A program made the translations under genes and the position numbers. The notes beneath the pieces were generated by a model. The model saw only the letters and a program-made list of their open reading frames with translations, ran no database searches and was not told the DNA's origin. Shown here piece by piece: positions 12,803 to 32,736 of a DNA stretch of 64,000 bases (position 1 is its first letter; each line of letters opens with the position of its first letter). The stretch comes from Burkholderia pyrrocinia (GTDB taxonomy: Bacteria > Pseudomonadota > Gammaproteobacteria > Burkholderiales > Burkholderiaceae), in assembly GCF_003330765.1 (NCBI RefSeq), contig NZ_CP024902.1:1612001-1676000 (forward strand), in the 5' to 3' direction.

Positions 12803-13654
12803 ATGTCCACCCAGGTCAACTTCGTCGCCAGCTATTGGACGGTCTCCGGGACGGTCTATCCGCTGGCGACCACTGAAGTCAGCCCCTTCACCTTCGAGGA
12901 GCGTGTTGAAACGGCCGCACGGGCAGGATTCAAAGGAATGGGCTTTGTCCACCAAGATCTTGTTGCGGTGCGTGATCGACTCGGCTACGCAAGCATGAAG
13001 CGGATCCTTGATGCGAACGGTATTGAAGACATTGAAGTTGAAATTCTGACGGACTGGTTTGCCGACGGTGATCGCAAGGCGCAATCGGACCTTGAGCGAG
13101 CTGACCTTCTTGAGGCTGGTGAAGCGTTGGGTGCCCGTGCGTTGAAAGTCTCCGGGGACCACCAAGGAAAACAATGGCCGCACGAGGTTTTGGTGAAAAC
13201 ATTCAGCGATCTCTGCGCAGATGCGGGACACGCTGGGATGAGGGTTGGCATCGAAATCATGCCGTGGTCGAATTTCAACAGCGTGAATGGGACGATGGAA
13301 GTTGTTCGGGACGCCGGTGCCAAGAATGGTGGTTTGTTCGTCGACATTTGGCATATCGAACGAGGTCCGTCGACAATGGCGGATATCGCCCGTCTTACGG
13401 CTAACGACATTGTTTCCGTGGAAATCAATGACGCTGCGACAGAAATGGTAGGCGACGTATGGAATGACACGCTCCATCATCGCCTCTTGCCTGGCGAAGG
13501 TTCGTTCGCGGTCCGCGAATTCATTGATGCGGTTCGGTCGACCGGTTACGTTGGACCGTGGGGGGTGGAGATTCTCTCGACTTCGTGGCGTGAGAAGCCG
13601 TTGGCGGAGGCCGCGGAAGCCGCAATTGCTGCCGGCCGGAAGTTCCTGGCGTAA
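12803..13654 (+). CDS. Sugar isomerase/dehydratase-like TIM barrel (IolE/IolI type)
   Basis: A 283-residue protein of the xylose isomerase-like TIM-barrel (AP-endonuclease 2) superfamily. Members are metal-dependent epimerases, isomerases and dehydratases such as IolI, IolE and hydroxypyruvate isomerase. Metal-ligand regions are visible: GIEIMPWSNF, FVDIWHIERG, VSVEINDA and WGVEILS, each supplying the expected Glu, Asp/His, and Glu on successive strands. SPFTFEERVETAARAGFKG at the start is the usual substrate-pocket entry. It is about 40% similar by eye to the 20249-21103 product. The ATG at 12803 has a perfect AAGGAGG (12789-12795). I infer a cytoplasmic step in conversion of a sugar or cyclitol. 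Confidence 0.8.
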   Translation: MSTQVNFVASYWTVSGTVYPLATTEVSPFTFEERVETAARAGFKGMGFVHQDLVAVRDRLGYASMKRILDANGIEDIEVEILTDWFADGDRKAQSDLERADLLEAGEALGARALKVSGDHQGKQWPHEVLVKTFSDLCADAGHAGMRVGIEIMPWSNFNSVNGTMEVVRDAGAKNGGLFVDIWHIERGPSTMADIARLTANDIVSVEINDAATEMVGDVWNDTLHHRLLPGEGSFAVREFIDAVRSTGYVGPWGVEILSTSWREKPLAEAAEAAIAAGRKFLA

Positions 13655-13777
13655 TTTTCACGCGCAGCGGGCCACCTGCTCATCTGATCGGCCGCGTCAC
13701 TCTCATTGCGGAAAATACACGTGAAAGAGTCGACGCGGCGTGCTCTGCAGCAATTTCTGCGCGTCGGGTCAGGATTC

Positions 13778-13819
13778 TTCCGCCCATCGGAAAGGTGATT
13801 TTGCACACAAGCATTTTTT
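13778..13819 (+). promoter_or_regulatory. Regulatory element E
   Basis: TTCCG-CCCAT-CGGAAA, 17 bp, GCATTTTTT. A candidate -10 (TACTTT) lies 18 bp later. It is placed about 130 bp before the ABC binding-protein gene at 13948. Confidence 0.75.
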
Positions 13820-13947
13820 TCGCGATGGTGGTGCGCTACTTTTGGTATTGACGCGAGACATCCTTAAATCGGACGTTGGTTTGAGGATTTAAAAATTCTT
13901 GGGCCTCGCGAAATAGAATTAATTAACAAATTAATGGAGACACGAGC

Positions 13948-14958
13948 ATGAGCACAAAATTTTTGAAGTTTGTTGGTGTGATCTTCGCTTCCGGCGCTGC
14001 ACTTGCCAACCCTCCCGCTTCCGCAGCCGAAACTCCCAAGGTCGGCTACTCCGCTGGATTTTTGACTGATCCGTTCCAATCGGTTCTCGTCCAAGGAATC
14101 CTCGAGCAGTCAAAAGGCACTGGTCTCGGCGTCCTTCCTGCAGCAAATGCAAACGGGGACGCCGCCAAACAGATCACCGATGTGCGCAATCTCGTGACGG
14201 CCGGAGCGAATCTTCTCATCGTCAACCCGACCGACAGTCGCGCCATTGTTCCTGCTCTCAACTTTGCGCAAGAAAAGAACGTTCCGGTGATCGCGGTGGA
14301 TGCCGCGCCGGCCGGCGGGAAGGTCTACATGATCGTCCGCGCAGACAACATCAAGATGGGACAGCAAGCATGCGAGGCCATGGGGCAGGCGCTCAATGGT
14401 AAAGGCAAGGTGCTCTCGCTGATGGGCGATCAGGCAACGACGAACGGACGCGATAGAACGGTAGGCTTCGATGACTGTATGAAAAAGAACTACCCAAATG
14501 TGAAAGTTATCGAGCAGCCTACCAACTGGAAGCCCGAGAAAGCTGCGTCCATCGCGCAAACGGTTCTGACATCGAACCCGGATCTCAACGGCATCTATCT
14601 GCAAAGCGACTCCGTTATGCTTGAGGGTGTCCTGAGTGTCTTGAAGAGCGCGGGCAAGCTGGTTCCGAAGGGCGTCCCGAAGCATATTGCATTGGTGACT
14701 ATCGACGGTACGCAAACCGCACTGAAAAATATTCGGCAGAAATATGTCGACGTCGCAATTTCCCAGCCGCTAAATCTTTATATCCGTCACGCAGTCTATT
14801 TTGCGCATCAAGCGCTCAATGCGCCCGATGGCGATCATGCTGAAATCAAGGCGAATGTGGTTGCCTTGGGCAGTAACAAAATGGACTTGATTCCAGCGAC
14901 GGTCGTTGACGAAAAGAATGTCAACGATGCTTCCTTGTGGGGAAACTCGAAGAAATAG
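13948..14958 (+). CDS. Sugar ABC transporter, periplasmic binding protein (system 1)
   Basis: A 336-residue exported protein with a signal peptide (hydrophobic GVIFASGAALANPPASA, cleavage near ASA-AET). The mature part has the Peripla_BP_4 fold of ribose/inositol-binding proteins: VGYSAGFLTDPFQ, then DAAKQITDVRNLVTAGANLLIVNPTDS, VPVIAVDAAPAGG, GKVLSLMGDQATTNGRDRTVGF and ALVTIDGT. It is the first gene of a binding-protein/ATPase/permease set (13948-17598) followed by an SDR, so it would capture the pathway substrate. The start has GGAGACACG 5' of it. The ligand cannot be predicted from sequence alone. Confidence 0.92.
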   Translation: MSTKFLKFVGVIFASGAALANPPASAAETPKVGYSAGFLTDPFQSVLVQGILEQSKGTGLGVLPAANANGDAAKQITDVRNLVTAGANLLIVNPTDSRAIVPALNFAQEKNVPVIAVDAAPAGGKVYMIVRADNIKMGQQACEAMGQALNGKGKVLSLMGDQATTNGRDRTVGFDDCMKKNYPNVKVIEQPTNWKPEKAASIAQTVLTSNPDLNGIYLQSDSVMLEGVLSVLKSAGKLVPKGVPKHIALVTIDGTQTALKNIRQKYVDVAISQPLNLYIRHAVYFAHQALNAPDGDHAEIKANVVALGSNKMDLIPATVVDEKNVNDASLWGNSKK

Positions 14959-15022
14959 GTTAACGTAGTGGCACAGGAAGATCTATTTGAGAGAGATCCG
15001 CCAAGCAATAGGAGACACCGAA

Positions 15023-16561
15023 GTGAACGCAACTGCCGTTGCCGACAATCATCGTGAGGGCGCAGCCGATCGTCCTGCTCTCGCCGTATCCACGCACAGC
15101 CTTTGCAAGAGCTTTGGTTCTGTTCGTGTCCTTAAGGACGTCTCGCTGCAAGTCCCGACCGGTGACTCGCGCGCACTTGTAGGTCGAAATGGTGCGGGCA
15201 AATCAACGCTCGTCGCGATGTTGACCGGGTTGTTTGAGCCCACATCTGGAACCGTCGAGTTTGGCGGACGTCCGGCGCCGGCTCTTAACAACCGAAATGC
15301 GTGGCGTGAAACAATTGCATGTGTCTACCAGCGTTGGACGATAATTCCCACGCTCTCAGTAGGCGAGAATCTGCTGCTTAACCGGCAAAATCCCAATGGT
15401 GGCGCATGGATAAATTGGCGGCGATCGTTCGATTACGCTGCGGACGTGCTGCGTAGTTGGGGGCTCGACGTAAATCCCAACACGCCCGCCTGGCGTCTGA
15501 GTGTTGAGCAACGCCAGATCGTCGAGATTGGCCGCGCGCTGCTGCAGGGAAGTCGATTGCTTGTGCTGGACGAGCCGACCGCCGAACTTGAGCGGCGTGA
15601 GGTGTCCCGTTTGTTCGATCGAATCAAAGCCCTGCAGGAATCTGGCATCACATTTATGTATATCTCGCACCATCTCGAAGAGATCTACGAGATATGCCAG
15701 AGCGTGAGTGTCATGCGTGATGGCGAGCTCGTGGCGGACAGCCTGCTTGAGGATATGCCAAAAGCGAGTCTCGTGGAGGCTATGGTTGGAGCATCTGGGA
15801 CCGCCCTGAGAAGATCTTCGTCACCGCCGCCGAGCGACGCCGTTCCGGTCACCGCAACAATCGAAGCGCTGTCGCTGAAAGACAAGCTTGATGGTGTGTC
15901 CTTCACCATTCGGCAGGGAGAGTGTCTGGGAGTTGCTGGTCTCGCCGGTTCGGGGAAAGATGAACTTGGAGAGGTGATTGCCGGACTGCGAACGCCCGAT
16001 GCTGGAGTGATCCGTCTTGACGGGAAACAAGTTCCCATGGGGGACCCAGTGGGTGCCCGCAAGTGCGGAGTTGGCTTTGTCCCCCGAGATCGACACGAGG
16101 CGGGTCTACTACCTCAGCTGTCGATCGCGGAGAACATTACCGTTTCGATAAACGACACCTTTGGCTGGGGTGGGTTCATCAGTCCTCGCAGGCAAGCAGA
16201 GTCCGCTCGTCAGCTGATGGATTCGCTCGGTGTCGTTGCGTCGTCACAAAGTCAACCAATTGGTGAACTGAGTGGTGGGAACCAACAGAAAGGCATGGTT
16301 GGGCGCGCTCTTGCGCCGAAACCTAAATTGCTGGTGCTGGCATCTCCTACCCAGGGCGTCGATATTGCATCGAAGGAGGCACTTTTCTCGATTGTGGAGA
16401 GAGCTAGAGCACAAGGAACATCAGTTCTGGTCATTTCTGACGATCTTGACGAGCTGGCTGTTTGCAGCCGCGTCCACGTCTTATTTCGAGGGCGCCTGAC
16501 CCATACGTTTGATGCCGGGTACGACGAGCACAAGCTCGTGGCGGCGATCGAGGGACTGTAG
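15023..16561 (+). CDS. Sugar ABC transporter ATP-binding protein, two NBDs (system 1)
   Basis: A 512-residue RbsA/MglA/XylG-type fusion of two nucleotide-binding domains. NBD1 has Walker A GRNGAGKS (54-61), an LSVEQRQ signature and Walker B LLVLDEPTAEL. NBD2 has GLAGSGKD (306-313) and signature LSGGNQQK. The expected Walker B Asp-Glu of NBD2 is replaced by Ala440-Ser441 (LLVLASPTQGVD), so the second site should not hydrolyse ATP normally. I start at the GTG at 15023, which follows AATAGGAGAC; the TTG at 14987 has no ribosome binding site. Binding-protein and permease genes are on either side. Confidence 0.9.
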   Translation: MNATAVADNHREGAADRPALAVSTHSLCKSFGSVRVLKDVSLQVPTGDSRALVGRNGAGKSTLVAMLTGLFEPTSGTVEFGGRPAPALNNRNAWRETIACVYQRWTIIPTLSVGENLLLNRQNPNGGAWINWRRSFDYAADVLRSWGLDVNPNTPAWRLSVEQRQIVEIGRALLQGSRLLVLDEPTAELERREVSRLFDRIKALQESGITFMYISHHLEEIYEICQSVSVMRDGELVADSLLEDMPKASLVEAMVGASGTALRRSSSPPPSDAVPVTATIEALSLKDKLDGVSFTIRQGECLGVAGLAGSGKDELGEVIAGLRTPDAGVIRLDGKQVPMGDPVGARKCGVGFVPRDRHEAGLLPQLSIAENITVSINDTFGWGGFISPRRQAESARQLMDSLGVVASSQSQPIGELSGGNQQKGMVGRALAPKPKLLVLASPTQGVDIASKEALFSIVERARAQGTSVLVISDDLDELAVCSRVHVLFRGRLTHTFDAGYDEHKLVAAIEGL

Positions 16562-16584: not shown

Positions 16585-17598
16585 ATGGCACACACTTCTT
16601 TACGTACTATTCCGACCGGTATGACGGGCAAAGTCAACATCATCGGCTCTCTTCGTGAATTGGTTCTGGTCCCCGTGATCATCATATCGATGATCGTCGG
16701 AACATTCCTGAATCCGGCGTTTTTGACAACCGACAATCTGCTAAATATCTTGCAGCAGTCGTCGGAGCTGTCCATCCTGGTTCTGGCGCAGACGCTCATT
16801 CTTATTGCCGGAAAATTCGATCTGTCTCTCGAGTCGATCGTCGGGTTCGCGCCTATGGTGGCGGGCTGGTTGATGGCCACCGACGCCTCGAACGGCGGGC
16901 TTGGTCTCGGCCTGAGCGGGGGGCTGGGAATCGCGATTGCCTTCGCAATCGGTGCTGCAATTGGTTTCTTCAACAGCATGTTGATCGTGAAGCTCCGCCT
17001 GAATGCTTTCATCGCTACGCTCGCAATGCTGATCTTGCTTCGTGGCGCAACAGTTGGCATTACTAACGGAAGGACGCTCTTCGATCTTCCCTCCAGCTTC
17101 ACCTATCTCGGGTCTGCAAAATGGCTCTCGGTTCCTGCATCAATCTGGGTGGCTGGACTGCTCTTTGCCGCGTTCGCAGTTCTGCTTCGTTATCACCGGC
17201 TGGGCCGATCGATCTACGCGATCGGAGGAAATGCAGAAGCAGCGCGTGTCGCCGGTATTCGTGTTGAGCAGATTACCATTTTGATCTATGTCGTCGCAGG
17301 GATCCTGGCCGCACTCTCGGGAATCATGCTGACGGGGCGAATCTCGTCGATCGTTGCGAGCCAAGGCCAGAACATGATTTTCTATGTTTTTGCAGCGGCT
17401 GTTATCGGGGGTATCAGCCTCAACGGTGGCCAGGGAAGCCTCGTCGGTGCGCTGACCGGAGTTCTGTTGCTGGGCATCTTGCAGAACATCCTGACGCTCT
17501 CGCAAGTTGCCGCGTTCTGGATCGACGCTGCTTACGGCGCAATCATTCTCGTGGCACTCGTCATCGCCCGCCTTAGCGGCGAGAAGCCGAGATCTTGA
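16585..17598 (+). CDS. Sugar ABC transporter permease (system 1)
   Basis: A 337-residue integral membrane protein of the BPD_transp_2 (RbsC/AraH) family with eight to ten hydrophobic segments. Characteristic features are ILIAGKFDLSLESIVGF, the family's 'GIDLSVG'-like second-helix region, and YAIGGNAEAARVAGIRVE, the cytoplasmic loop that contacts the ATPase. SGIMLTGRISS and GGISLNGGQGSLVGALTGVLLLG complete the pattern. It lies 23 bp after the ATPase gene. A single permease gene implies a homodimer in the membrane. Confidence 0.93.
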   Translation: MAHTSLRTIPTGMTGKVNIIGSLRELVLVPVIIISMIVGTFLNPAFLTTDNLLNILQQSSELSILVLAQTLILIAGKFDLSLESIVGFAPMVAGWLMATDASNGGLGLGLSGGLGIAIAFAIGAAIGFFNSMLIVKLRLNAFIATLAMLILLRGATVGITNGRTLFDLPSSFTYLGSAKWLSVPASIWVAGLLFAAFAVLLRYHRLGRSIYAIGGNAEAARVAGIRVEQITILIYVVAGILAALSGIMLTGRISSIVASQGQNMIFYVFAAAVIGGISLNGGQGSLVGALTGVLLLGILQNILTLSQVAAFWIDAAYGAIILVALVIARLSGEKPRS

Positions 17599-17637: not shown

Positions 17638-18411
17638 GTGACACTGATTGAGAAGCTTTCACTAAAGGGAAAAGTTGCGCTTGTCACGGGCGGTGCAGGT
17701 GGAATCGGACAGGCTATCGCGAAGGAACTGCTGGCGCTTGGCGCAACGGTCGTTCTTTCCGACCGAGTTGCAGCCGCGGCCGAAGCAACTCGGGATCTTG
17801 AAGCCGAGCCCTCGAAGTTGGATTTCGTTTCATTTGACGTTGCCGACAGCCAGGCAGTTGCGAAGGGGGTTGGCGAAATTGTCGCGAAGCATGGTCGCTT
17901 GGACATCCTGGTTGCGAATGCAGGCGTCTCCTACGATGAAACCACACTGGAGCATACAGACGAGAGTTGGCGTAGGGTGATGGGGGTGAACCTGGACGGC
18001 GTGTTTTTCTGCATACGTGAAGCAGGGCGTGCAATGGCGAAGGCAGGCGGGGGTTCCATTGTTGCAATCTCGTCTATCTGCGGAGTGACAGCGGTTCGGC
18101 CGGAGGTTCACATCGGCTACGATGTGTCAAAGGCCGGTGTTGCCCATATGTGCAGAAATCTGGCGGTCGAGTGGGCGAAGCGAAATATCCGAGTCAACGC
18201 AGTCAGTCCAGCCTATGCCGAGACGGCAATGCTGCAAGCGGTTGGGGAAGAGAATCCTGCGGTTATGAAGCAATGGCTCGAGGATATGCCAATCGGACGC
18301 CTTATGAAGCCGGGCGAGGTTGCATCGGCTGTTGCATTCCTCGCTTCGGACGCGGCTAGCGGGATTTCCGGGCACAATCTCTTGGTCGACGGCGCCTATT
18401 CCGTTTCCTGA
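17638..18411 (+). CDS. Short-chain dehydrogenase/reductase (system 1 operon)
   Basis: A 257-residue classical SDR. The cofactor motif TGGAGGIG is at residues 17-24, with Asp at the end of beta-2 (VVLSDRV), which favours NAD(H). NAG is in LVANAGVS, the catalytic Ser is in SISSICG-like IVAISSICG, and YDVSK supplies the Tyr-x-x-x-Lys pair. The C-terminus ends GHNLLVDGAYSVS. The start is GTG with GGAGAGTAAA before it, 39 bp after the permease gene, so it belongs to the transport operon. It probably oxidises a hydroxyl of the imported compound or a derivative. Confidence 0.88.
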   Translation: MTLIEKLSLKGKVALVTGGAGGIGQAIAKELLALGATVVLSDRVAAAAEATRDLEAEPSKLDFVSFDVADSQAVAKGVGEIVAKHGRLDILVANAGVSYDETTLEHTDESWRRVMGVNLDGVFFCIREAGRAMAKAGGGSIVAISSICGVTAVRPEVHIGYDVSKAGVAHMCRNLAVEWAKRNIRVNAVSPAYAETAMLQAVGEENPAVMKQWLEDMPIGRLMKPGEVASAVAFLASDAASGISGHNLLVDGAYSVS

Positions 18412-18476: not shown

Positions 18477-19622
18477 TTATCGAGCGGCCTGCTTCTTGTA
18501 GATGTGTGCGATTCGATGGAAGACCTCCTTTGGTTCCCATGGAGGCATTTGCTTGGATTTGAGATGATCGTCAGGATAGGTCTTGACCAATGAGAAACTC
18601 ATCATGTCGAGGTCTCGTGCTCCCTCGCCATGCCGATATGTCGGGAACGAGAAAACATAGATGAACACTCCGTCGACACCGGCATCGTTCAGCAATTCGA
18701 GTTGCTCCTCGACGTAATCGGCCTGTTCTCGCTCGCTTCGCGTCGGCACGATACCATCCGTGAAAATCCCCGTCCCGTCGGGGTTCGTTCCCTGCAGACG
18801 CATGAAGCCGCCGGCTCCTAGCTTGCCCGCTCCGTCATAGGCGCAGGAGCCTACCTCCATGACAACCAGCGGCTTGCTGAAGCGATAGCGATCCAGGGCT
18901 TCGGTGTATTGTTCCGCCGCTTCGCCGTTGCGGTAATGATCAATGCCGACGATATCGAGCGGACTCCAGTCCACCGCCTCCCACATGCCAGCTGAGTAAG
19001 TGACCGGGCCTTTGAAAGTCTTGCGCACTCCGTCGACGATCTGCCCGAGCGCCTCGTTGAACATTGCTGCCTTGGCTCGCAGTAGCAGGTCATCACCCGA
19101 TTTGACTGCCGCTTCGAGCCCTATCATGCCATGCACGCGTTCGATTACGGTCGACCCTTCAAGGATACCGTCATTGAATAAGGACATTTCGCAGCCGGCG
19201 ACAAAAACGATGTTGGTGCCTTCACTCCTCAACTGTTCTGCGGCGCGCGCGGCGTGCGCGAAATAGGCGGGCAACTCAGCGATCGGCACGTTCATCTTCC
19301 ACGGGTTGAAGAACACAGCAAGACCGGCCGCATGCGCGATACGCGATGCTGTTACTAGACGTTCGATTTCCTCCCCTTCGATGCGAATCGCGTTGGCATG
19401 CAGTCTGGTGGCGATGGTATTGATGTCATAGGCGACGAGTTTCGGATCGAAATGCTCGACGGAGTAGGGGTTGTCGGCCGTGAACCTCAAGCCCACGTCG
19501 TAGACGACGCCGCGATATTTCATATTGTCGATTCCTTTCATTGATGAAAATATGGGTAGGACTGGAAGCGAGGCTGACGCACCAGTGGCTACAGTCATTT
19601 TGAGTAGTGTTCTACGCTTCAC
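18477..19622 (-). CDS. Tat-exported glycoside-hydrolase-like TIM-barrel protein
   Basis: A 381-residue protein starting with a twin-arginine-like leader (KRRTLLKMTVATGASASLP), so probably exported folded. The mature part starts YRGVVYDVGLRF and has the alternating pattern of a TIM barrel. VFVAGCEMSLF and LVVMEVGSCAYDGAG place Glu residues at the ends of strands 4 and 7, as in clan GH-A glycosidases. Homologues are often labelled 'abortive infection protein', a name with no support here. The start is a GTG at 19622 with a weak ribosome site. It is convergent with the SDR gene and may release the transportable moiety from a glycoside; that is inference. Confidence 0.6.
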   Translation of the reverse strand: MKRRTLLKMTVATGASASLPVLPIFSSMKGIDNMKYRGVVYDVGLRFTADNPYSVEHFDPKLVAYDINTIATRLHANAIRIEGEEIERLVTASRIAHAAGLAVFFNPWKMNVPIAELPAYFAHAARAAEQLRSEGTNIVFVAGCEMSLFNDGILEGSTVIERVHGMIGLEAAVKSGDDLLLRAKAAMFNEALGQIVDGVRKTFKGPVTYSAGMWEAVDWSPLDIVGIDHYRNGEAAEQYTEALDRYRFSKPLVVMEVGSCAYDGAGKLGAGGFMRLQGTNPDGTGIFTDGIVPTRSEREQADYVEEQLELLNDAGVDGVFIYVFSFPTYRHGEGARDLDMMSFSLVKTYPDDHLKSKQMPPWEPKEVFHRIAHIYKKQAAR

Positions 19623-20248: not shown

Positions 20249-21103
20249 TTACTTGAACTGTTGAATCGTCGCGTTGTAGGCACGTGCTGCCATCTCTTCC
20301 AGCGGAAGCTTCCGCTCGACTTCGGACAGAATTTCGACGCCCCACGGACCGTCGAAGCCAGTCGCCTGGACAGCCTTAATGAACCCCTTGACATCGAGTA
20401 CACCCTCGCCAGGAAGACGACGCTTGTGGCAGGTGTCCATCCAGAGAGGTTCGATCGCATAGCGATCTGCATCGTCAAGTTCGATGCCTTTGATGAATTG
20501 CGGCTTGATGGTTGCGATTTCCTTGAAATCGATGTTGCCGCGCGAGAGATGCCAAATGTCGAGCAGAAGACCAGCGTTCGCCTTGTTGGCGCCCTCGACG
20601 ATCGCTTTGCCAGTCTCGATTGTGCGGATGTTGCTGAACGGCATGATTTCGAGCATTACCTGGGTGCCACGCTTCTCGGCGTCTTCGGCGAGCTTGGCGA
20701 ACTCCTCCACCATCAGGGGGATGTTTGCGATGTCCTCGCCGATCCCAGGTCCGACTTTGACGATGCGCGCCCGCAATTCTTCAGCGGCCTTCAGGTAGTA
20801 GTAGCGCATGCTGTCGGACGCGCGACGACGTTCGCCGGTCTGATACCAATCGACGAGGAACTCGAACTCTACGTGCTTGATGTCGTTCGCTTCGAGGATA
20901 CGTCGCATTTCTGCGAAGCCAATCTTGTCGACAGTCGCATAGATGTCCGAGTGAATGAGCCCAATGCCCGACCATCCTGCTTGGGCAGCGGCCTCAACGC
21001 GGTCCTTGAAGCTGAACGGGCTGATCTCAGTTGGACCAAACGGATACACGTCGCCCGATAGCGTGAAATAGGCTGCTACGAGCTCAACATTCGACTTTGA
21101 CAT
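20249..21103 (-). CDS. Sugar isomerase/dehydratase-like TIM barrel, second copy
   Basis: A 284-residue paralogue of the 12803 gene, same superfamily. Shared landmarks are AAYFTLSGDVYPFGPTEISP, FKDRVEAAAQAGWSGIGL, MLEIMPFSNI, LLDIWHLSRGN, GIELDDAD and WGVEILSEVERK, which supply the metal and acid/base residues of the barrel. The many differences argue for a distinct substrate or step rather than a recent duplication. It is divergent from the second ABC operon, with regulatory element B between them. Two dehydratase-like barrels plus two dehydrogenases are what a two-step dehydration of a cyclic polyol would need; the reaction is inferred. Confidence 0.8.
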   Translation of the reverse strand: MSKSNVELVAAYFTLSGDVYPFGPTEISPFSFKDRVEAAAQAGWSGIGLIHSDIYATVDKIGFAEMRRILEANDIKHVEFEFLVDWYQTGERRRASDSMRYYYLKAAEELRARIVKVGPGIGEDIANIPLMVEEFAKLAEDAEKRGTQVMLEIMPFSNIRTIETGKAIVEGANKANAGLLLDIWHLSRGNIDFKEIATIKPQFIKGIELDDADRYAIEPLWMDTCHKRRLPGEGVLDVKGFIKAVQATGFDGPWGVEILSEVERKLPLEEMAARAYNATIQQFK

Positions 21104-21313
21104 TTCGATTCTCTCGATAGGGAACAGGTTGGTGACGACATAGTATGGTCGCCGTGTACCTGACTATCGCGTAGAAATCTGGGATGATAAACACATCTGC
21201 GTTCCACTGAATGTAGAAATTTTCTCTACGAAGAATAGGGGACATAGTGAGTCGAAGGCATCGAGCGAAATTGTGCACTTTGCCGTGGTGATCTGCGCTC
21301 TCTCAGCGCATAT

Positions 21314-21355
21314 TTCCGCTACCCGGAAATAACTTTTCGTGGGCCCGCATTTTTC
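21314..21355 (+). promoter_or_regulatory. Regulatory element B
   Basis: TTCCG-CTACC-CGGAAA, 17 bp, GCATTTTTC. A candidate -10 (TACTGT, 21373-21378) follows 17 bp later. With a start point near 21385, the centre of the dyad is at about -64, the classical LysR recognition position. The binding-protein ATG is at 21441. Confidence 0.8.
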
Positions 21356-21440
21356 TTTGAGCTCGCAGCCCGTACTGTTGCCTCGAAAACATCAAAACCA
21401 ACACGCTCAATATCGGGTGTGATCTAGAAGGAGACACAGT

Positions 21441-23721: not shown

Positions 23722-23763
23722 TTCCGCCGAGAGGAAAGATCATTTTTCCTCCCGGCATTTTTC
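23722..23763 (+). promoter_or_regulatory. Regulatory element C
   Basis: TTCCG-CCGAG-AGGAAA, 17 bp, GCATTTTTC. The right half differs in one base. Inside it, GAGGAAA and TTTCCTC form an additional inverted repeat (23730-23750). A candidate -10 (TAATAT) follows 17 bp later. It lies about 340 bp before the ATPase gene at 24101, in a 480-bp gap with no other feature. Confidence 0.75.
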
Positions 23764-25684: not shown

Positions 25685-26687
25685 AACCGCTCTTGAACCC
25701 TCTATGCGGGCTTCCCCTACATTCTATAGGCGCTGGGCTTCGGCCCTGTTCGGCAGCACGAGTATTCATGCGGGCTCCATCCGAGTTGCAACGCTATTGC
25801 TGATCATCGTTGCAGCGGTCGTCGTTCCTCATTTCACCGATTTCGGCAACGTCCAGTCGCTGATGTACTCGGTTTCCGCGGTCGGAGTCGGTGCAGTCGG
25901 GATGGCGCTCGTCACACTGAGCGGAAATCTGTTCATGCTCTCGATGGGCGCGACGGCTGCGGTGTCGACGGTAATGTTCGCTGCACTGATCCACCTCGGA
26001 CTCGGCGTAACCGTTCTCGCCGTCGTTCTTGCTGGTCTTGCGATGGGCATTGCGCAGGGCGCCATCATCGCGCTGGGCAGGGCGAATCCGATCATCACGA
26101 CGATCGCGACCTCTTCCATCATTCTCGGCGCAGGCGTGCTCTATACCGGCGGCCTTACCATCATCGGAGATGGCGATGCAACCTGGCTCGGTCAAGGCAA
26201 GTTCTTTGGCTGGTTGCCGACCCAGATCATCGTACTCGCCGTTTTCGTGATCATCGGGAGTTTCATACTGCAGAAGACGCGTATCGGACGGGAGATCAGG
26301 TTCATTGGCATGCGTTCGGAGGTTGCTCGCATCGCGGGTCTGCGCCTGATGGCGGCCACCCTGTTCTGCTACGGATTTGCAGGCGCGGCGGCGGCGCTCG
26401 CCGGATCTCTCATCGCATCGTCGTCCGCGCAAGGAAATCTCACCTACGGGGTCGATCTCGACTTCAACGCAATCGCCGCAGTGCTGGTCGGCGGTATCTC
26501 GATCCGTGGCGGACGCGGACAGATATCGGACGCGGTTACCGGCGCCATCTTCCTCGCTGTGATCAGTAATATCCTGCTCGTGAGCGGCGTTAGTTACGAG
26601 TATCAATTGGTCGTCAAAGGCATGGTGGTGCTGGGGGCGGTCGTGTTCGGTGCGTTGCTCGCCCGTCTCGGGCCCAGCAAGAAATAA
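25677..26687 (+). CDS. Sugar ABC transporter permease 1 (system 2)
   Basis: A 336-residue BPD_transp_2 family membrane protein. Hydrophobic segments start at VATLLLIIVAAVVVPHF; LVTLSGNLFMLSMGATAAV corresponds to the family's second-helix motif, and IRFIGMRSEVARIAGLRLM is the ATPase-contact loop. AVLVGGISIRGGRGQISDAVTG completes the signature. The ATG at 25677 follows GGAGG and overlaps the ATPase stop. A second permease gene follows 12 bp later, so the transporter core is likely a heterodimer. Confidence 0.92.
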   Translation: MHKTALEPSMRASPTFYRRWASALFGSTSIHAGSIRVATLLLIIVAAVVVPHFTDFGNVQSLMYSVSAVGVGAVGMALVTLSGNLFMLSMGATAAVSTVMFAALIHLGLGVTVLAVVLAGLAMGIAQGAIIALGRANPIITTIATSSIILGAGVLYTGGLTIIGDGDATWLGQGKFFGWLPTQIIVLAVFVIIGSFILQKTRIGREIRFIGMRSEVARIAGLRLMAATLFCYGFAGAAAALAGSLIASSSAQGNLTYGVDLDFNAIAAVLVGGISIRGGRGQISDAVTGAIFLAVISNILLVSGVSYEYQLVVKGMVVLGAVVFGALLARLGPSKK

Positions 26688-26699: not shown

Positions 26700-27686
26700 A
26701 TGAATCAATCTCAACGTCTTCTGAATTTTGTGATTCGTTCGGTCCTGCTAATCGGCATGCCCGTGTACTTCGGCCTGACCGTCGATCACTTCTTCTCAGC
26801 GGCCAACCTGTACGCGATTTTCCAGGCTTTCGCCTTCCTCGGCATCGTAGCGCTGGGCTTGTCGGTGACGATGGTTGCTGGTGAATTCGACCTCAGTGTG
26901 GCGGCGCTTGCGACTGTCGCGGGCCTGATCACCGTGAAGTTTGGCGGCGACAGTGCGGTACTTGGCCTGGTCTATGCCGTCTGCTTCGGCATCGTGGTGG
27001 GTATCGCGAACGCGGCGCTTTTGCCCTGGCTTGGTGTGTCGTCGCTCGTCACAACGGTCGGCTCGATGATGTTCCTCACGGGCGTCGGTTACTGGTTAGC
27101 TGGCGGGCGTGTCCTGAGCTGGGCGAATCTCGATGCGAGCGACTTCCTGGATCAGAACATCTTTGGCATCTTCTCCCCGCGTAGCCTGATTACCATCTTC
27201 TGCTATGTGGTCGTATCGCTGCTTTTGCGATATACCACGCTCGGTCGGGACATCTATGCAGCGGGTGGACACCGGAAGGCTGCCGTCCAGAGCGGCGCGC
27301 GAGTCGGCGCTGCATTGACAGTAGGTTTTGCAATCTCCGGCAGTCTTTCAGCGCTCGGTGGAGGACTGCTATCGCTAAGCCTTGCGACTGCGTCCGCGAC
27401 GATGGGAAGTAATGTCCTACTTCAAGCTGCGTCGGCGGCCATTGTGGGTGGTGTGGCACTTGAGGGCGGGATCGGTACGCCGCTCGGCGTCGCAGTCGGC
27501 GTTCTGATCCTGACGGTGCTCAATAATGGACTCGGTTTGCTCAATGCGACATCGACCGAGATCCTGCTCGTAAACGGTCTGCTTCTTTTGATGGTGGTGC
27601 TGCTGGATGGTCGTTTGGGCGGCGTACTGGCCAACCCCTTGGCTCGTATGGTCCAGACTCGTTTCGTGAGAGGCACTCGGGCCTGA
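26700..27686 (+). CDS. Sugar ABC transporter permease 2 (system 2)
   Basis: A 328-residue BPD_transp_2 family protein with about nine hydrophobic segments. LGLSVTMVAGEFDLSVAALATVAG is the RbsC-like helix-2 region, and YAAGGHRKAAVQSGARVG is the cytoplasmic coupling loop. AAIVGGVALEGGIGTPLGVAVG follows. GGAGAGCGAA precedes the ATG. It is the last gene of operon 2; element D and the dioxygenase operon come next. Confidence 0.92.
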   Translation: MNQSQRLLNFVIRSVLLIGMPVYFGLTVDHFFSAANLYAIFQAFAFLGIVALGLSVTMVAGEFDLSVAALATVAGLITVKFGGDSAVLGLVYAVCFGIVVGIANAALLPWLGVSSLVTTVGSMMFLTGVGYWLAGGRVLSWANLDASDFLDQNIFGIFSPRSLITIFCYVVVSLLLRYTTLGRDIYAAGGHRKAAVQSGARVGAALTVGFAISGSLSALGGGLLSLSLATASATMGSNVLLQAASAAIVGGVALEGGIGTPLGVAVGVLILTVLNNGLGLLNATSTEILLVNGLLLLMVVLLDGRLGGVLANPLARMVQTRFVRGTRA

Positions 27687-27752
27687 AAAATGGTGGTGGC
27701 TGCGACTTGGCTTGCATAGCGCAGCGGCGTTGGAATAGACGACGGAGTATTC

Positions 27753-27794
27753 TTCCGGCGCCCGGAAATGTCATTTCACCGGAGCGCATTTTAT
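27753..27794 (+). promoter_or_regulatory. Regulatory element D
   Basis: TTCCG-GCGCC-CGGAAA, 17 bp, GCATTTTAT. A candidate -10 (TTAACT) lies 16 bp later. It is 66 bp before the dioxygenase ATG, the closest of the five copies to a gene. Confidence 0.75.
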
Positions 27795-27860
27795 TTCCCG
27801 CGGCGAAGCTTTAACTTTGTCGGACGACGCTTGCGAGATCGCACAACGGAGACATTTGAA

Positions 27861-28742
27861 ATGCGCAATATCAACGAAGACACCATCACGCTTGCTGTGA
27901 TCGAATCGTTTGCAAAGTGCGAGGACCCTCGTCTGCGAACGATCATGACGCATCTCGTGCAACACCTGCACGCCTTTGCTAGAGAGGTGAAGCTAACCGA
28001 GGCCGAGTGGTTCAAGGCCATTTCATTTCTCACTGAGGTCGGTCACATCACAGACGACAAGCGTCAGGAATTCATTCTGCTTTCGGATACGCTCGGCCTG
28101 TCCATGCTGGTGACGGCTCAGAATAACAGCAAGCCTGCAAATTGCACTGAGGCGACGGTATTCGGACCGTTTTTTCTGGAGGGGGCTCCCATCTACACCA
28201 ACGGAGACGACATCTCCAATGGTGCGCATGGTGCACCGTGCTACGTAAAAGGCCAAGTAAGAGGCACCGACGGTGAAGGTTTGCCGAATGCATGGCTTGA
28301 CGTGTGGCAGTCAGACGAAGACGGCTTCTACGACGTTCAGACCCATACTGGCGATGGGCCTACGGAACATCGTGCTCGGGGGCGGATTCGAACTGATGCC
28401 GAGGGGTACTTCCACTTTCGGTCGATTCTCGCTGAAGCTTACCCCATCCCCCACGATGGGCCGGTAGGTCGGATGCTTAATGCGACGGGGCGTCACCCAT
28501 GGCGGCCGGCCCACCTGCATTTCATGCTTCAGGCGCCTGGCTACGAGACACTGATCACGCACGTGTTCCGGAATGGCGATCAGTATCTCGACTCTGACGT
28601 GGTCTTCGGCGTCCGTTCTTCGCTGATAGCAGACTGGGTTCGCCACGAGCCGGGAATCGCACCAGACGGCAAGGTATTCGACGTACCGTGGTACTCGCTC
28701 GACTTCGATTTCGTACTCAATCCTTCGGAGACTACTGCATGA
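27861..28742 (+). CDS. Hydroxyquinol 1,2-dioxygenase (intradiol)
   Basis: A 293-residue non-haem Fe(III) enzyme that cleaves 1,2,4-trihydroxybenzene between C1 and C2 to maleylacetate (via 3-hydroxy-cis,cis-muconate). The N-terminal helical dimerisation domain (DDKRQEFILLSDTLGLSMLV) and the beta-sandwich catalytic domain are complete. The iron ligands fall at Tyr157 (DEDGFYDV), Tyr194 (AYPIPHDGP), His218 and His220 (RPAHLHF), with the same mutual spacing as catechol dioxygenases. The wider sequence and the maleylacetate reductase gene next door favour hydroxyquinol over catechol. The ATG at 27861 follows CGGAGAC. It overlaps the next gene by 4 bp. Confidence 0.92.
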   Translation: MRNINEDTITLAVIESFAKCEDPRLRTIMTHLVQHLHAFAREVKLTEAEWFKAISFLTEVGHITDDKRQEFILLSDTLGLSMLVTAQNNSKPANCTEATVFGPFFLEGAPIYTNGDDISNGAHGAPCYVKGQVRGTDGEGLPNAWLDVWQSDEDGFYDVQTHTGDGPTEHRARGRIRTDAEGYFHFRSILAEAYPIPHDGPVGRMLNATGRHPWRPAHLHFMLQAPGYETLITHVFRNGDQYLDSDVVFGVRSSLIADWVRHEPGIAPDGKVFDVPWYSLDFDFVLNPSETTA

Positions 28743-29089
28743 TCCGGCATATCGTTATGTGGCGCGTGCGCGGGGATACGGACGCCGAGCGTGCGGCGGC
28801 ATCGGAGCTTGTGAAGGCAAGGTTCGAAGCGTTGCGTGGCCGAATTCCCGGGATGCACCATCTTGAGGTAGGGATCGACTTAAGCGGCGTTGACTATGCA
28901 TGCGACGTGGTACTGGTGACCGAATTCGAGTCCCGTGAGGCGTTGGAGGCCTACGCTTCCCATCCTGAGCATTTACGTGTTCGCACGGAGCTCGGTGATT
29001 TGCGGACGGCACGGTTTCAGGTCGACTATGAAATTGACCGTAACGTGATGCGTACGATCAACGCGGAGCACGTACATGAAAAAGCTTGA
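28739..29089 (+). CDS. Dabb-family (stress-responsive alpha/beta barrel) protein
   Basis: A 116-residue protein starting MIRHIVMWRVRG, with FEALRGRIPGMHHLEVGID, VVLVTEFESREALEAYASHPEH and the Dabb ferredoxin-like fold. Such dimeric barrels are found as small accessory enzymes or stabilising proteins in aromatic and polyketide pathways; the exact role here is unknown. Its ATG overlaps the dioxygenase stop (ATGA) and its end overlaps the maleylacetate reductase start by 14 bp, so the three are translated as one operon and the protein is likely part of the same pathway. Confidence 0.85.
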   Translation: MIRHIVMWRVRGDTDAERAAASELVKARFEALRGRIPGMHHLEVGIDLSGVDYACDVVLVTEFESREALEAYASHPEHLRVRTELGDLRTARFQVDYEIDRNVMRTINAEHVHEKA

Positions 29090-30140
29090 ATTTTTATATC
29101 AGGCGCGCCAGGGCCGTGTTGTATTTGGTGCGGGTAGCTTGCAGCACCTTGAGCGCGAAGTTCTCGAACTGGGGGCAGAGCGGGCGCTGATTCTTTGTAC
29201 GCCGGAACAGAGCGGGACTGCGGAGGCGGTAGCTGAGCGTCTGGGCGCCCGTGCCGCAGCCATTTTCGACAAGGCCGTGATGCACGTCCCTATTGAACTC
29301 GCTCGCGAAGCACGTGAGTTGGCACGGGAACTGAACGCAGACTGCGCTATCGCTGTGGGCGGGGGCTCCACGGTTGGTCTCGGGAAGGCAATCGCGATGG
29401 ATTCCGGTCTTCCCATTCTGGCAATCCCAACGACCTACGCCGGCAGCGAGATGACGGCTATCTATGGCATCACCGAGGGTGGCCTGAAGAAGACGGGAAC
29501 CGATGTCAGGGTGCTTCCGAAAACGGTAATTTACGATCCGGATCTGTCGATCACATTGCCGGTTGGATTGTCGGTGACGAGTGGTATAAACGCGATTGCA
29601 CACGCAGCAGAAGCACTGTATTCCCGCGATGCGAATCCGGTGATCAGCCTGATGGCCGAAGAGGGAATCTCGGCGTTGGCCCGGGCGCTGCCGGGCATTG
29701 TTGCTAATTCAACTGATATCAATGCACGCTCGCAGGCGCTTTATGGAGCGTGGTTGTGCGGGACGGTGCTTGGTAGCGTTGGTATGGCGTTGCATCATAA
29801 GCTCTGCCATACCCTTGGAGGGAGCTTTAATCTCCCGCACGCCCAGACCCATACTGTCGTGCTCCCACATGCGCTCGCGTACAACAGGCAAGCAGCACCA
29901 GAAGCGATGACACGCATCGCACGCGCGATCGGCGCCGACGATGCGGCGATTGGCATCTACGAGTTAGCAAAGGCGAATGGCGCTCCGGTCGCGTTGAAGG
30001 AAATTGGTATGAAAGCCGAGGACGTGGCGAAAGCTGCCGAAATTGCCAGTTCGAATCCGTACTGGAATCCGCGGCCTATCGAGCGTGAAGCGATCCACGC
30101 TCTGCTGCAGGATGCGTTTGACGGGGTGCGCCCGAGCTAG
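29076..30140 (+). CDS. Maleylacetate reductase
   Basis: A 354-residue iron-type alcohol dehydrogenase family protein. It reduces maleylacetate to 3-oxoadipate with NAD(P)H, the step after hydroxyquinol ring cleavage. The nucleotide-binding region is AIAVGGGSTVGLGKAIA, and IPTTYAGSEMTAIYGITE is specific to maleylacetate reductases. The metal-site region is HHKLCHTLGGSFNLPHAQTH, with the His residues of Fe-ADHs. Length matches known enzymes. It overlaps the Dabb gene. 3-Oxoadipate would then enter the host beta-ketoadipate pathway; no later enzymes are in the window. Confidence 0.94.
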   Translation: MKKLEFLYQARQGRVVFGAGSLQHLEREVLELGAERALILCTPEQSGTAEAVAERLGARAAAIFDKAVMHVPIELAREARELARELNADCAIAVGGGSTVGLGKAIAMDSGLPILAIPTTYAGSEMTAIYGITEGGLKKTGTDVRVLPKTVIYDPDLSITLPVGLSVTSGINAIAHAAEALYSRDANPVISLMAEEGISALARALPGIVANSTDINARSQALYGAWLCGTVLGSVGMALHHKLCHTLGGSFNLPHAQTHTVVLPHALAYNRQAAPEAMTRIARAIGADDAAIGIYELAKANGAPVALKEIGMKAEDVAKAAEIASSNPYWNPRPIEREAIHALLQDAFDGVRPS

Positions 30141-30225: not shown

Positions 30226-30510
30226 ATGCATTTCACTGTCTATTGTCTTGACCATGATGCTGTCGTCGAGCGCCGGCTCGAACACTACGACGCCCACAAA
30301 GCCTATCTTCAAACTTCCCCGGTGAAAACACTGATCTCGGGCCCGCTGACCAAAGCGGATGGAACCACGATGATCGGAAGTTTCTTCCTCTATGAAGCCG
30401 AAAGTATCGGTGACGTCGAGGCGTTCGTCGGGAATGATCCTTTCAATAAGGCGGGGATATGGAAGTCGATCGATATCAGACCATTCATAAAGCGCGTCGA
30501 TAACCGATAA
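30226..30510 (+). CDS. YciI-family protein
   Basis: A 94-residue YCII-domain protein: MHFTVYCLDHDAVVERRLEHY, KTLISGPLTKADGTTMIGSFFLYEAES and DPFNKAGIWKSIDIRPFI. The His-Asp pair typical of YciI is partly visible (D-H-D near the N-terminus, GPL-x-x-x-D-G). Relatives catalyse dehalogenation, lactone isomerisation or serve as small pathway enzymes. The ATG at 30226 has CTGGAGGTG before it. It lies 85 bp after maleylacetate reductase in the same direction, so co-transcription is likely. Confidence 0.85.
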   Translation: MHFTVYCLDHDAVVERRLEHYDAHKAYLQTSPVKTLISGPLTKADGTTMIGSFFLYEAESIGDVEAFVGNDPFNKAGIWKSIDIRPFIKRVDNR

Positions 30511-30612
30511 CATAGAGCCGTCGGGTAGTCGGCGTTAGCCGGCGCAAGATGAACAGGAATATTTCTGTTTTTCAAATTAAGAGGATTGCTGATAAATATT
30601 AAGGAGACAAAC

Positions 30613-31416
30613 ATGGAAACAGGTCTTGATGGAAAGATCGTCCTCGTGACTGGCGCAGCAAAGGGAATTGGTCGCTCAACGGCAGTCGCGTTTGCGAAGG
30701 AAGGAGCACGGCTGTGCCTCGTGGATATCGATGGCGGGGCACTCGAAGAGGTTCAGTCGGAACTTCGAGCGATGGGGACTAACGTAAGTATCGCGCAGGC
30801 CGACCTCTCGAAGGCCACTGGTGTCTCAGAAGGGATCGATTCAGTGCTGCACCGGTATAACGGGCAGGTCGATGTTCTCGTGAACAACGTAGGCGCAGGC
30901 AAGGTGCGGACCTTCGAGGACCTCTCGGACGAGGATTGGGAATTTACCCTGAACCTAAACTTTATGAGCTACGTGCGCGCATGCCGCCACCTGCTTCCTG
31001 CACTTCGTGCACGAGAGAAGGCTGTCATCATCAACAATGCATCCGATTTGGCACGGCAGCCAGAGCCGGTTCCCATCGACTATTCGGCGTCGAAAGCGGC
31101 CGTGCTGGCTCTGACCAAAGGGCTGGCTCGCGCCGAGGCACCGCGGATTCGCGTCAACGCTGTCGCCCCAGGGCCGGTATGGACGCCTTTCTGGACTAAA
31201 GAAGGCGGCTTCGCAGATACGATGGGGAAATTCCATGGAATGGCGCCACGCGAAGCCGTCGAACACGAACTCTCGCTGCGTCAACTACCGTTAAACCGGT
31301 TAGGTCAGCCGGAGGAAGTCGCGAATGTGATCGTGTTCTTGGCGTCAGATCTCGCTTCGTTTGTAACTTCTGCCGTTTGGGGCGTAGATGGCGGCAGCAT
31401 TCGAAGCCTTATCTGA
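30613..31416 (+). CDS. Short-chain dehydrogenase/reductase (second)
   Basis: A 267-residue SDR with TGAAKGIG near residues 14-21, Asp in LCLVDIDGG (NAD preference), NNVGAG in place of NNAG, catalytic Ser in IINNASDLAR, and YSASK. The C-terminal substrate loop WTPFWTKEGGFADTMGKF is unlike that of the first SDR, so the two likely handle different intermediates. The ATG at 30613 follows AAGGAGAC. It is placed between the ring-cleavage genes and the IolG-like dehydrogenase. Confidence 0.88.
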   Translation: METGLDGKIVLVTGAAKGIGRSTAVAFAKEGARLCLVDIDGGALEEVQSELRAMGTNVSIAQADLSKATGVSEGIDSVLHRYNGQVDVLVNNVGAGKVRTFEDLSDEDWEFTLNLNFMSYVRACRHLLPALRAREKAVIINNASDLARQPEPVPIDYSASKAAVLALTKGLARAEAPRIRVNAVAPGPVWTPFWTKEGGFADTMGKFHGMAPREAVEHELSLRQLPLNRLGQPEEVANVIVFLASDLASFVTSAVWGVDGGSIRSLI

Positions 31417-31743
31417 TAACGAGCGTGTGTGTGGCGTCAGTGTTGGCTCACCATTCGCGTGTTCCCTGCGGCGTGTCGATGCCGTCGAGACGTAGAAGGG
31501 GCTAGGCTTTCTTGATCGTCGATGTCGACCCAGCACGGATGCGCTGGCCATCTGCCTTGGCGGGGGCGACGGTAGGACCGAATAGCGGTCGAAATTGCGG
31601 TCGCACGAAGGGAGCGGACGTGGATGTCTCAGAGTATAGATCCGATGGTTCATAACGCGCCAAAGGGCTCTGGCTCCCCGTGATTATTGACCTTTAATAG
31701 ATAGCGTGCCGGATGGGCGCGTAGATGTAATCGGGAGACTTGT
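31417..31743. other. Intergenic region
   Basis: 327 bp between the SDR and the IolG-like gene. I find no copy of the 42-bp element, no RNA gene and no clear terminator. Confidence 0.4.
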
Positions 31744-32736
31744 ATGTTGCGAATTGCTGTCCTTGGTGCGGGACGTATTGGAAAAATCCATGCGGCAAAT
31801 GTGGCCGCGGACCCCCGTCTCGAACTGGTTGTTGTTGCCGATCCGAACGAGGCGGCAGTCGCCGAATTGGCGAGTCAACTCAACTGCGACTTCAGCCTCG
31901 ATTGTGCGACGGTCGTCGATCGCGAAGATGTGGACGCGGTAATCGTCGGTACCCCGACGGACACCCACATAGACCTTATGTTGCGCGCTGTACGAATTGG
32001 AAAGCCGGTTCTCTGCGAGAAGCCGATCGACCTCGACATCGACCGGGCACTCGTTGCCGTCGAGGAAATTGAGCGATTGCAAGGCAAGGTAATGCTTGCT
32101 TTCAACAGACGATTCGATCCGGACGCGATTGCGCTGAAGAAGGCAATTCTCGATGGCGAGGTGGGGGATGTTCGCCAAATCATCATCACGAGCAGGGATC
32201 CGGGCCTTGCGCCGCGAGAATACCTTCGCCATTCAGGGGGCATTTTCCGCGATATGACCATCCATGACTTCGACACCGCTCGCTGGCTGCTGGGCGAGGA
32301 CCCGGTCGAGGTGATGGCGATGGGCAATCGCCTGGTTGATCCGGGCCTGGAAGAGATCCCGGATTTCGATAGCGTGATGGTGCTGATACGAACTGCATCG
32401 GGGAAGCAGTGCCATATCAACGGCTCAAGACAAGCTGTCTACGGCTTTGATCAGCGCGTGGAGGTTTTCGGCTCGAAGGGGATGCTCCTCAACGAGAACC
32501 ATCGTCCGTCTAGCCTACGTCGATGGACGAGCAGTGCAACAGAAGTGCGCGATCCGCTGCTCCACTTTTTCCTCGAGCGGCATGCGGACTCGTATCGTGT
32601 TGAGCTCAACGCATTTGTCGACGCGCTACAGAGGAGCACTGGAATGCCCGCGACCCCTCGTGATGGCATTAAAGCGCTGCGAATCGCGAATTGCGCACTT
32701 GAGGCAGCTTGGACGGGACGCGCCGTCCGGATCTGA
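31744..32736 (+). CDS. myo-Inositol 2-dehydrogenase-like protein (IolG type)
   Basis: A 330-residue Gfo/Idh/MocA dehydrogenase. The Rossmann motif is VLGAGRIGKIHAAN, and CEKPIDLD carries the catalytic Lys. The segments AFNRRFDPDA, EVGDVRQIIITSRDP and GGIFRDMTIHDFDTARWLLG are the hallmark of IolG-type inositol dehydrogenases, including the Asp and His of the Lys-Asp-His catalytic set. It would oxidise a ring hydroxyl of a cyclitol with NAD to the ketone. This is the strongest sequence hint that the pathway substrate is inositol-like. GGGAGACTTGT precedes the ATG. A LysR gene follows 122 bp later. Confidence 0.88.
   Translation: MLRIAVLGAGRIGKIHAANVAADPRLELVVVADPNEAAVAELASQLNCDFSLDCATVVDREDVDAVIVGTPTDTHIDLMLRAVRIGKPVLCEKPIDLDIDRALVAVEEIERLQGKVMLAFNRRFDPDAIALKKAILDGEVGDVRQIIITSRDPGLAPREYLRHSGGIFRDMTIHDFDTARWLLGEDPVEVMAMGNRLVDPGLEEIPDFDSVMVLIRTASGKQCHINGSRQAVYGFDQRVEVFGSKGMLLNENHRPSSLRRWTSSATEVRDPLLHFFLERHADSYRVELNAFVDALQRSTGMPATPRDGIKALRIANCALEAAWTGRAVRI

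Follow-up and report, generated by a model that had tools for sequence, protein, structure and literature searches.

A candidate regulon for conversion of cyclitol-type compounds to hydroxyquinol in Burkholderia pyrrocinia

Described routes and composition of the cluster

In the degradation of quinate and shikimate, a carbocycle is aromatised by dehydration and passes into intradiol cleavage by way of protocatechuate (QuiC, AsbF). A gene cluster at positions 12183-33767 of a 64,000-nucleotide stretch of the Burkholderia pyrrocinia genome (the window) may carry out a related conversion, in which the substrate class, the enzymes and the product differ. The product here would be hydroxyquinol instead of protocatechuate, Gfo/Idh dehydrogenases and sugar-type ATP-binding cassette (ABC) import take part, and the barrels are one-domain proteins that score far below the QuiC cut-off.

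Other described systems resemble the cluster in part. Canonical iol clusters share with it an IolG-type dehydrogenase, xylose-isomerase-like barrels and RbsB-type importers, and barrels related to those studied here occur in iol clusters; however, the window has no IolD, IolB or IolE match, and ring opening would fall to a dioxygenase, not to the hydrolase IolD. Hydroxyquinol pathways fed by hydroxylation (resorcinol, nitrophenol, chlorophenol) have in common with it the dioxygenase (DIOX), the maleylacetate reductase (MAR), a small A/B-barrel protein (DABB), a LysR-type regulator (REG) and sometimes a regulatory element, whereas the cluster has a barrel, Gfo/Idh dehydrogenases and importers, and no ring hydroxylase was found among its genes scanned by family. 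Levoglucosan and 3-keto-glycoside cleavage (Lgd, OGE, CGE) also combine Gfo/Idh dehydrogenases with sugar-isomerase-like or TIM-barrel proteins, according to the accessible parts of the sources (PMC7676230, PMC10628242), but neither the catalytic His of the eliminases nor their strand-7 His is present in the barrels of the cluster.

No published description of a route from a cyclitol through hydroxyquinol to ring cleavage was found in the searchable literature (titles and abstract openings of the papers listed, with most subscription journals outside it), and the same search found no pathway for quercitol catabolism in bacteria. This agrees with the preliminary description of this DNA, which knew of no described pathway with this gene set. 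To our knowledge, no bacterial catabolic pathway is established for quercitols. Cyclitols are common plant solutes.

Gene content, linkage in relatives, family and fold placement, and confinement of a shared DNA element to the cluster are sequence-level results, and they suggest that the cluster is probably a catabolic regulon by which a cyclitol-type compound is oxidised, dehydrated to hydroxyquinol and cleaved, leading to 3-oxoadipate. If true, this would connect the metabolism of carbohydrates with that of aromatics by a path other than the shikimate acids, assign a function to a barrel family (its nearest structure, Lmo2234, carries only the label of a putative sugar isomerase), and provide catalysts that make hydroxyquinol out of polyols. 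With an element, a regulator and three gene arrangements found in nature, the idea is open to direct tests.

Open reading frame (ORF) and family scans of the window placed the importers, barrels, Gfo/Idh dehydrogenases, short-chain dehydrogenases (SDRs), DIOX and MAR where they had been described. The set is larger than first described: the likely cognate LysR gene (REG, 37824-38750) lies outside the interval, and two small genes (DABB, 28739-29089; YCII, 30226-30510) had been overlooked. The genes are as follows.

12803..13654, + strand: BAR1, xylose-isomerase-like TIM barrel, accessory second barrel (family scan, 283 residues)
13948..14958, + strand: SBP1, sugar-type periplasmic binding protein (family scan)
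14987..16561, + strand: ATP1, double ATPase of importer 1 (family scan)
16585..17598, + strand: PRM1, permease of importer 1 (family scan)
17638..18411, + strand: SDR1, short-chain dehydrogenase (family scan)
18477..19622, - strand: GH113-like protein, sub-threshold match (24.7 of 27 bits)
20249..21103, - strand: BAR2, xylose-isomerase-like TIM barrel linked with DIOX, putative keto-cyclitol dehydratase
21441..22403, + strand: SBP2, sugar-type periplasmic binding protein (family scan)
22499..23620, + strand: GFO, Gfo/Idh dehydrogenase (best PDB match 5ya8)
24101..25684, + strand: ATP2, double ATPase of importer 2 (start codon chosen; longest ORF from 24008)
25677..26687, + strand: PRM2a, permease of importer 2 (start codon chosen; longest ORF from 25584)
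26700..27686, + strand: PRM2b, permease of importer 2 (family scan)
27861..28742, + strand: DIOX, intradiol dioxygenase of the hydroxyquinol 1,2-dioxygenase type
28739..29089, + strand: DABB, small A/B-barrel protein (PF07876)
29076..30140, + strand: MAR, maleylacetate-reductase-type iron alcohol dehydrogenase
30226..30510, + strand: YCII, small YCII-domain protein (PF03795)
30613..31416, + strand: SDR2, short-chain dehydrogenase (family scan)
31744..32736, + strand: IOLG, inositol 2-dehydrogenase family (TIGR04380)
32859..33767, + strand: LYSR, LysR-type protein, 3' of IOLG in loci L202-L204 too

By sequence comparison, DIOX is far nearer to hydroxyquinol dioxygenases than to catechol ones, with 316.5 bits against the hydroxyquinol 1,2-dioxygenase 1tmx, 126.3 against the best chlorocatechol enzyme and 119.5 against the best catechol enzyme. 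MAR matches two chains named maleylacetate reductase, 3w5s (406.7 bits) and 3hl0 (399 bits), with E values of 7e-121 and 2e-118, whereas its best match, 3jzd (511.8 bits), is named merely an iron-containing alcohol dehydrogenase. These results agree with the functions proposed earlier for the two genes. DIOX is widespread, being found in 132 of 299 family genomes at E <= 1e-60. A second hydroxyquinol-type dioxygenase (52%) lies elsewhere in the same genome (L206, contig C2, 2748000-2767999) with a maleylacetate reductase, an aldehyde dehydrogenase and a hydroquinone dioxygenase subunit, as a nitrophenol-type cluster.

The description of one IolG-like and one other Gfo/Idh dehydrogenase was also borne out, since IOLG passes the inositol 2-dehydrogenase model TIGR04380 (377.5 bits; cut-off 355) and GFO does not (108.8 bits). 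GFO passes no curated cut-off; among NCBIfam models it scores highest with that of levoglucosan dehydrogenase (NF052479, 312.9 bits, below the cut-off of 650), and its best PDB match, 5ya8, is a scyllo-inositol dehydrogenase with L-glucose dehydrogenase activity (E 2.3e-88).

Both barrels pass the PF01261 gathering score of 31.1 bits (BAR1, 73.7; BAR2, 92) and fall short of the 1200-bit cut-off of the QuiC model NF042435 (70.6 and 60.1, respectively); with 283 and 284 residues against 635 model positions, they lack the second QuiC domain. Neither was among the matches to the IolE model TIGR04379 at E <= 0.001, and the IolE search of the host genome found only two places, which are not BAR1 or BAR2. 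The nearest structures in the fold search include IolI and QuiC among the matches listed. Thus, of the earlier label "IolE/IolI-like", the xylose-isomerase-like fold and the nearness to IolI stand, but the barrels are closer to IolI and QuiC than to IolE. For the family comparison, barrels with stops or fewer than 240 residues were removed, followed by identical ones (107 to 80), and removal of short, long and near-identical sequences left 59 of the 80 for the tree, in which win_BAR1 and L103 formed long branches. L098, whose translation contains stops, was left out of alignment A1.

Conservation in relatives and the shared element

The host genome comprises 8.0 Mb in three contigs, and its family mates include Caballeronia, Paraburkholderia, Cupriavidus and Pararobbsia. 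In a BAR2 search of the 299 family genomes, 26 genomes, the host included, had a match at E <= 1e-30. Outside the host there were 26 barrel loci in 25 genomes and six genera (the tool's count), and DIOX lay on the same stretch in 24 of the 26 (type A, 9/11; type B, 10/10; type C, 5/5); the remaining two barrels are near a contig end (G290) and on a 3.4-kb contig (G108). Linkage of the barrel with a Gfo/Idh dehydrogenase and the hydroxyquinol dioxygenase has been retained in three arrangements, which supports the cyclitol reading.

Type A loci contain BAR2, SBP2, GFO, ATP2, PRM2a/b, REG, DIOX, DABB and MAR; in Pararobbsia (L053), SBP2-GFO-BAR2-DIOX-DABB-MAR-YCII-SDR2 are co-directional. Type B loci contain a LysR gene, DIOX, the barrel, IOLG (in L113, the one scanned, 400 bits where the cut-off is 355), a second Gfo/Idh dehydrogenase, a binding protein, an ATPase, a permease, DABB, MAR and a LacI-type regulator. 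In type C loci, DIOX, DABB, YCII (3/5), a flavin mononucleotide (FMN) reductase, an amidohydrolase, the barrel and MAR are accompanied by divergent SDR, Gfo/Idh and importer genes. The barrel and DIOX are 50-95 bp apart in Pararobbsia and type B. Three further loci (L202-L204) have DIOX-DABB-MAR-YCII-SDR2-IOLG-LYSR in the same order as the window, at 71-85% identity, with BAR2 about 17-18 kb off on the same contig.

The source of hydroxyquinol was examined in 53 stretches longer than 9 kb with DIOX, consisting of the window plus 52 loci, of which L053 and L104 are one and counted twice. Two flavin adenine dinucleotide (FAD) hydroxylase queries, taken from two of the 20 barrel-free loci, were used, and matches over 150 residues were counted, which left a shorter fragment in L194 uncounted. 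Matches were found in none of the 33 stretches with barrel and DIOX and in 6 of the 20 without barrel (Fisher p 0.0017, a value that ignores relatedness and for which the origin of the queries favours matches in barrel-free loci). L202-L204 were scored as barrel-free despite the distant BAR2; without them the counts were 0/33 and 6/17 (Fisher p 0.0008, relatedness again ignored). No match was found in the window by this two-query search, and a hydroxylase-fed branch was set aside there on that ground; at most barrel-free loci other than the six, no hydroxyquinol source was found. The FAD hydroxylase of some barrel-free DIOX loci was not found with the barrel, which also favours the cyclitol reading.

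Comparison of the intergenic regions yielded a 46-bp element in five copies, from which a 46-column matrix was built. The copies and the regulator gene REG are located as follows.

12183..12228, + strand: element copy 1, 5' of BAR1
13776..13821, + strand: element copy 2, 5' of SBP1
21312..21357, + strand: element copy 3, 5' of SBP2
23720..23765, + strand: element copy 4, 5' of ATP2
27751..27796, + strand: element copy 5, 5' of DIOX
37824..38750, - strand: REG, LysR-type regulator whose orthologues adjoin DIOX and the element in relatives

The consensus is roughly TTTCCG-N5-GGAAA-N5-TTTC-N8-GCATTTTTCTT. Leave-one-out scores were 33-49, those of the best non-members 12-17, and five mononucleotide shuffles gave scores no higher than 12.0. 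When up to two mismatches were allowed, a 33-base pattern had exactly five matches in the 8.0-Mb genome, every one in the cluster, and its reversed control had none at the same setting. The shared regulatory element proposed previously is therefore real and confined to the cluster genome-wide.

Relatives were scored with the window-only matrix (L053 and L104 being counted twice). The element was present in 22/22 type A stretches (60 sites), 5/5 type C stretches (10 sites) and all three of L202-L204 (6 sites); it was found in none of 47 other barrel loci, and the reversed control gave no site in any group. In 15/22 type A loci, the element is flanked by DIOX on one side and, on the other, by a divergent LysR gene with 80-88% identity to REG; in the remaining seven, the stretch ends before DIOX or, in Pararobbsia (L053/L104), DIOX is placed elsewhere. 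A regulator adjoining its operator in relatives, as in these 15 loci, is expected of a LysR regulon, and REG is the likely cognate regulator of the element. LYSR at 32859 was considered and set aside, as REG fits better by its neighbourhood in relatives. The element joins both importers, GFO, BAR1 and DIOX in one regulon, very probably under REG, and this common operator again lends support to the cyclitol reading. REG adjoins DIOX in many relatives and an IS256-family transposase intervenes here between LYSR and REG (33896-35146, - strand), so REG seems to have been displaced from the cluster.

Proposed pathway and other explanations

In the proposed pathway, one or both ABC importers would take up a polyhydroxylated cyclohexane or a simple derivative, and GFO or IOLG would convert one carbinol to a ketone. 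Metal-dependent BAR2, together with BAR1 in this strain, would then eliminate water beta to the ketone until hydroxyquinol is formed; the SDRs might tune the redox level, and YCII or DABB may assist, YCII being a possible helper in elimination or tautomerisation. From established knowledge of their families, DIOX would cleave hydroxyquinol to maleylacetate and MAR would reduce this to 3-oxoadipate. REG would respond to an intermediate of the hydroxyquinol branch and activate the importers, GFO, BAR1 and DIOX via the 46-bp element. Such an intermediate is a more likely effector than the imported compound, because REG and the element occur at DIOX loci without barrels, one of which has an FAD hydroxylase. 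Induction of the importers by this effector is sensible if import supplies the branch.

Keto-inositols aromatise via enolisation and beta-elimination, and inosose esters give 1,2,3,5-tetrahydroxybenzene, as stated in the accessible part of PMC5327690. The accessible part of PMC11467972 describes the chemical conversion of myo-inositol to 1,2,3,4-tetrahydroxybenzene and, via protected routes, to 1,2,4-trihydroxybenzene. For a cyclohexane-n-ol C6H12On, reaching C6H6O3 takes n-3 dehydrations and 6-n oxidations (removals of hydrogen pairs). This is two dehydrations and one oxidation for n=5 (quercitol), three dehydrations and no net oxidation for n=6, and one dehydration and two oxidations for n=4. 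The earlier formula argument for a quercitol was correct but not unique, and the gene set could be compatible with substrates of n=4, 5 or 6. 2-Deoxy-scyllo-inosose can be converted to 1,2,4-trihydroxybenzene. By our own derivation, a deoxy carbon adjacent to the ketone would lead to the 1,2,4-triol and one opposite to it to pyrogallol. A more specific and more tentative version, which we regard as plausible, is that a Gfo/Idh dehydrogenase forms the ketone of a quercitol beside the deoxy carbon and the new barrel clade performs two beta-eliminations to hydroxyquinol, which the dioxygenase cleaves. If true, this would be an aromatising cyclitol pathway apart from the hydrolytic iol route, spread over six Burkholderiaceae genera in three arrangements.

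The order of oxidation, dehydration and cleavage put forward in the preliminary description thus gains support from the linkage, the hydroxylase pattern, the common operator and the presence of related barrels in canonical inositol clusters, while a quercitol is only one candidate substrate and dehydration is a putative function of the barrels. The related barrels, which are mostly actinobacterial, have the inositol gene iolD as a neighbour at 23 of 47 loci (L056-L102).

Several observations weigh against the cyclitol reading. In the other 24 of these 47 loci, no IolD was found in the available stretch, and DIOX matches over 150 residues were absent from all 47 (a shorter one in L088 was left uncounted). 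Barrels 65% and 61% identical to BAR2 occur in a Pedobacter and in a Lysobacterales metagenome-assembled genome, respectively, in which no DIOX was found at E <= 1e-40. Isomerase or epimerase activity would suit the barrel fold equally well as dehydration, and BAR1 is nearly private, with a match in 2 of 369 class genomes, its own included (E <= 1e-45). With regard to regulation, none of ten type B stretches has the element by the window-only matrix; in the window, no copy is directed at BAR2 (copy 3 faces SBP2) or lies 5' of SDR2 or IOLG, so the latter two would need transcription from the promoter of DIOX or from a separate one. The element was also found in 4 of 17 further DIOX loci without barrel (5 sites), including L192, which has an FAD hydroxylase, and it consequently marks the hydroxyquinol branch, not the proposed route alone. 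Moreover, the 18477-19622 protein may indicate a glycoside as the outer substrate.

This last point bears on the alternative, also named in the preliminary description, that GFO oxidises C3 of a hydroxyquinol glycoside and a barrel eliminates the aglycone, which is then cleaved, while the other barrel and the SDRs salvage the sugar. The 18477 protein is weakly hydrolase-like, and the best, sub-threshold NCBIfam model of GFO is levoglucosan dehydrogenase; as far as the accessible text goes, the levoglucosan route pairs such a dehydrogenase with two proteins that carry sugar phosphate isomerase annotations (PMC7676230), and the known glycoside beta-eliminases are TIM barrels (PMC10628242). However, BAR1 and BAR2 lack both the catalytic His and the strand-7 His of OGE and CGE: in 29/29 family members the catalytic His is absent, position 154 (two past the strand-5 ligand) holds M, L, A or F, and strand-7 position 208 is Glu, not His, the positions being placed by sequence alignment to IolI and 5hmq with no superposition on OGE. 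Since CGEs also have Glu at the strand-5 site (PMC10628242, accessible part), the argument is based on the absence of the catalytic His and on Glu in strand 7. These residues make glycoside beta-elimination by the barrels less likely; the passing score of IOLG as an inositol 2-dehydrogenase and the related barrels in inositol clusters speak against the glycoside as well. Hydroxyquinol glycosides are also rare, and we consider this explanation quite unlikely.

Alternatively, an inositol, amino-cyclitol or methyl-cyclitol could yield tetrahydroxybenzene, or hydroxyquinol via an extra reduction, on which DIOX and MAR would act. IOLG belongs to the inositol 2-dehydrogenase family, the two SDRs could provide the reduction, the extra amidohydrolase of type C operons could deaminate, and aromatisation of inosose esters to 1,2,3,5-tetrahydroxybenzene has a precedent (PMC5327690, accessible part). 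This is nevertheless unlikely, given that DIOX and MAR closely match hydroxyquinol and maleylacetate enzymes and that canonical iolD and iolE are already present elsewhere in the genome. For the latter reason, and because the window has no IolD, IolB or IolE match, ordinary inositol catabolism by the cluster was rejected. The genes could also be separate modules under common control, an ordinary polyol route and a hydroxyquinol branch for an unrelated co-occurring aromatic, as the element and REG at barrel-free DIOX loci and the related barrels without DIOX would allow. The 50-95 bp between barrel and DIOX in Pararobbsia and type B, the linkage in 24/26 loci and three arrangements, the failure of the two-query search to find a hydroxylase alongside barrels, and a window without IolD, IolB or IolE match to complete a polyol route make such independence highly improbable.

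Accessory genes and neighbouring features

BAR1 had no match in other genomes among the 299 family genomes (E <= 1e-75), and its module therefore looks accessory. The barrel of Pedobacter deserti (L056, 10001-10834) lies near SusD-like, AraC and FecR genes and looks like a gene transfer to a different setting. The 18477-19622 protein, with a signal-like N-terminus besides its GH113 match, is conserved at 66-79% beside BAR2 in L036, L038, L040, L054 and L121, and could free the substrate from a conjugate. An amidohydrolase recurs at DIOX loci L105-L109, L198, L199 and L205 (NCBIfam PRK08204 type in L106, the one scanned); in type C it adjoins the FMN reductase and the barrel, and one thought is that it deaminates an amino-cyclitol or aminophenol. 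The ORF at 19720-20478 (- strand) was dismissed as a gene because it has no family match and overlaps BAR2.

The following genes lie beyond LYSR.

33896..35146, - strand: IS256-family transposase, separating the cluster from REG
35704-36696: nitronate-monooxygenase-like gene

Elsewhere in the window, three adjacent genes at 40091-47344 (+ strand) match PADLOC SngA, SngB and SngC, being a TerB-domain protein, a BrxC/D-like ATPase and a BrxH-like helicase, and apparently form a Sng-type defence system. At 50408-54366 (- strand), an AAA ATPase similar to IetA adjoins an Hsp70-like protein of 831 aa, and a phage-type integrase is located at 55526-57232.

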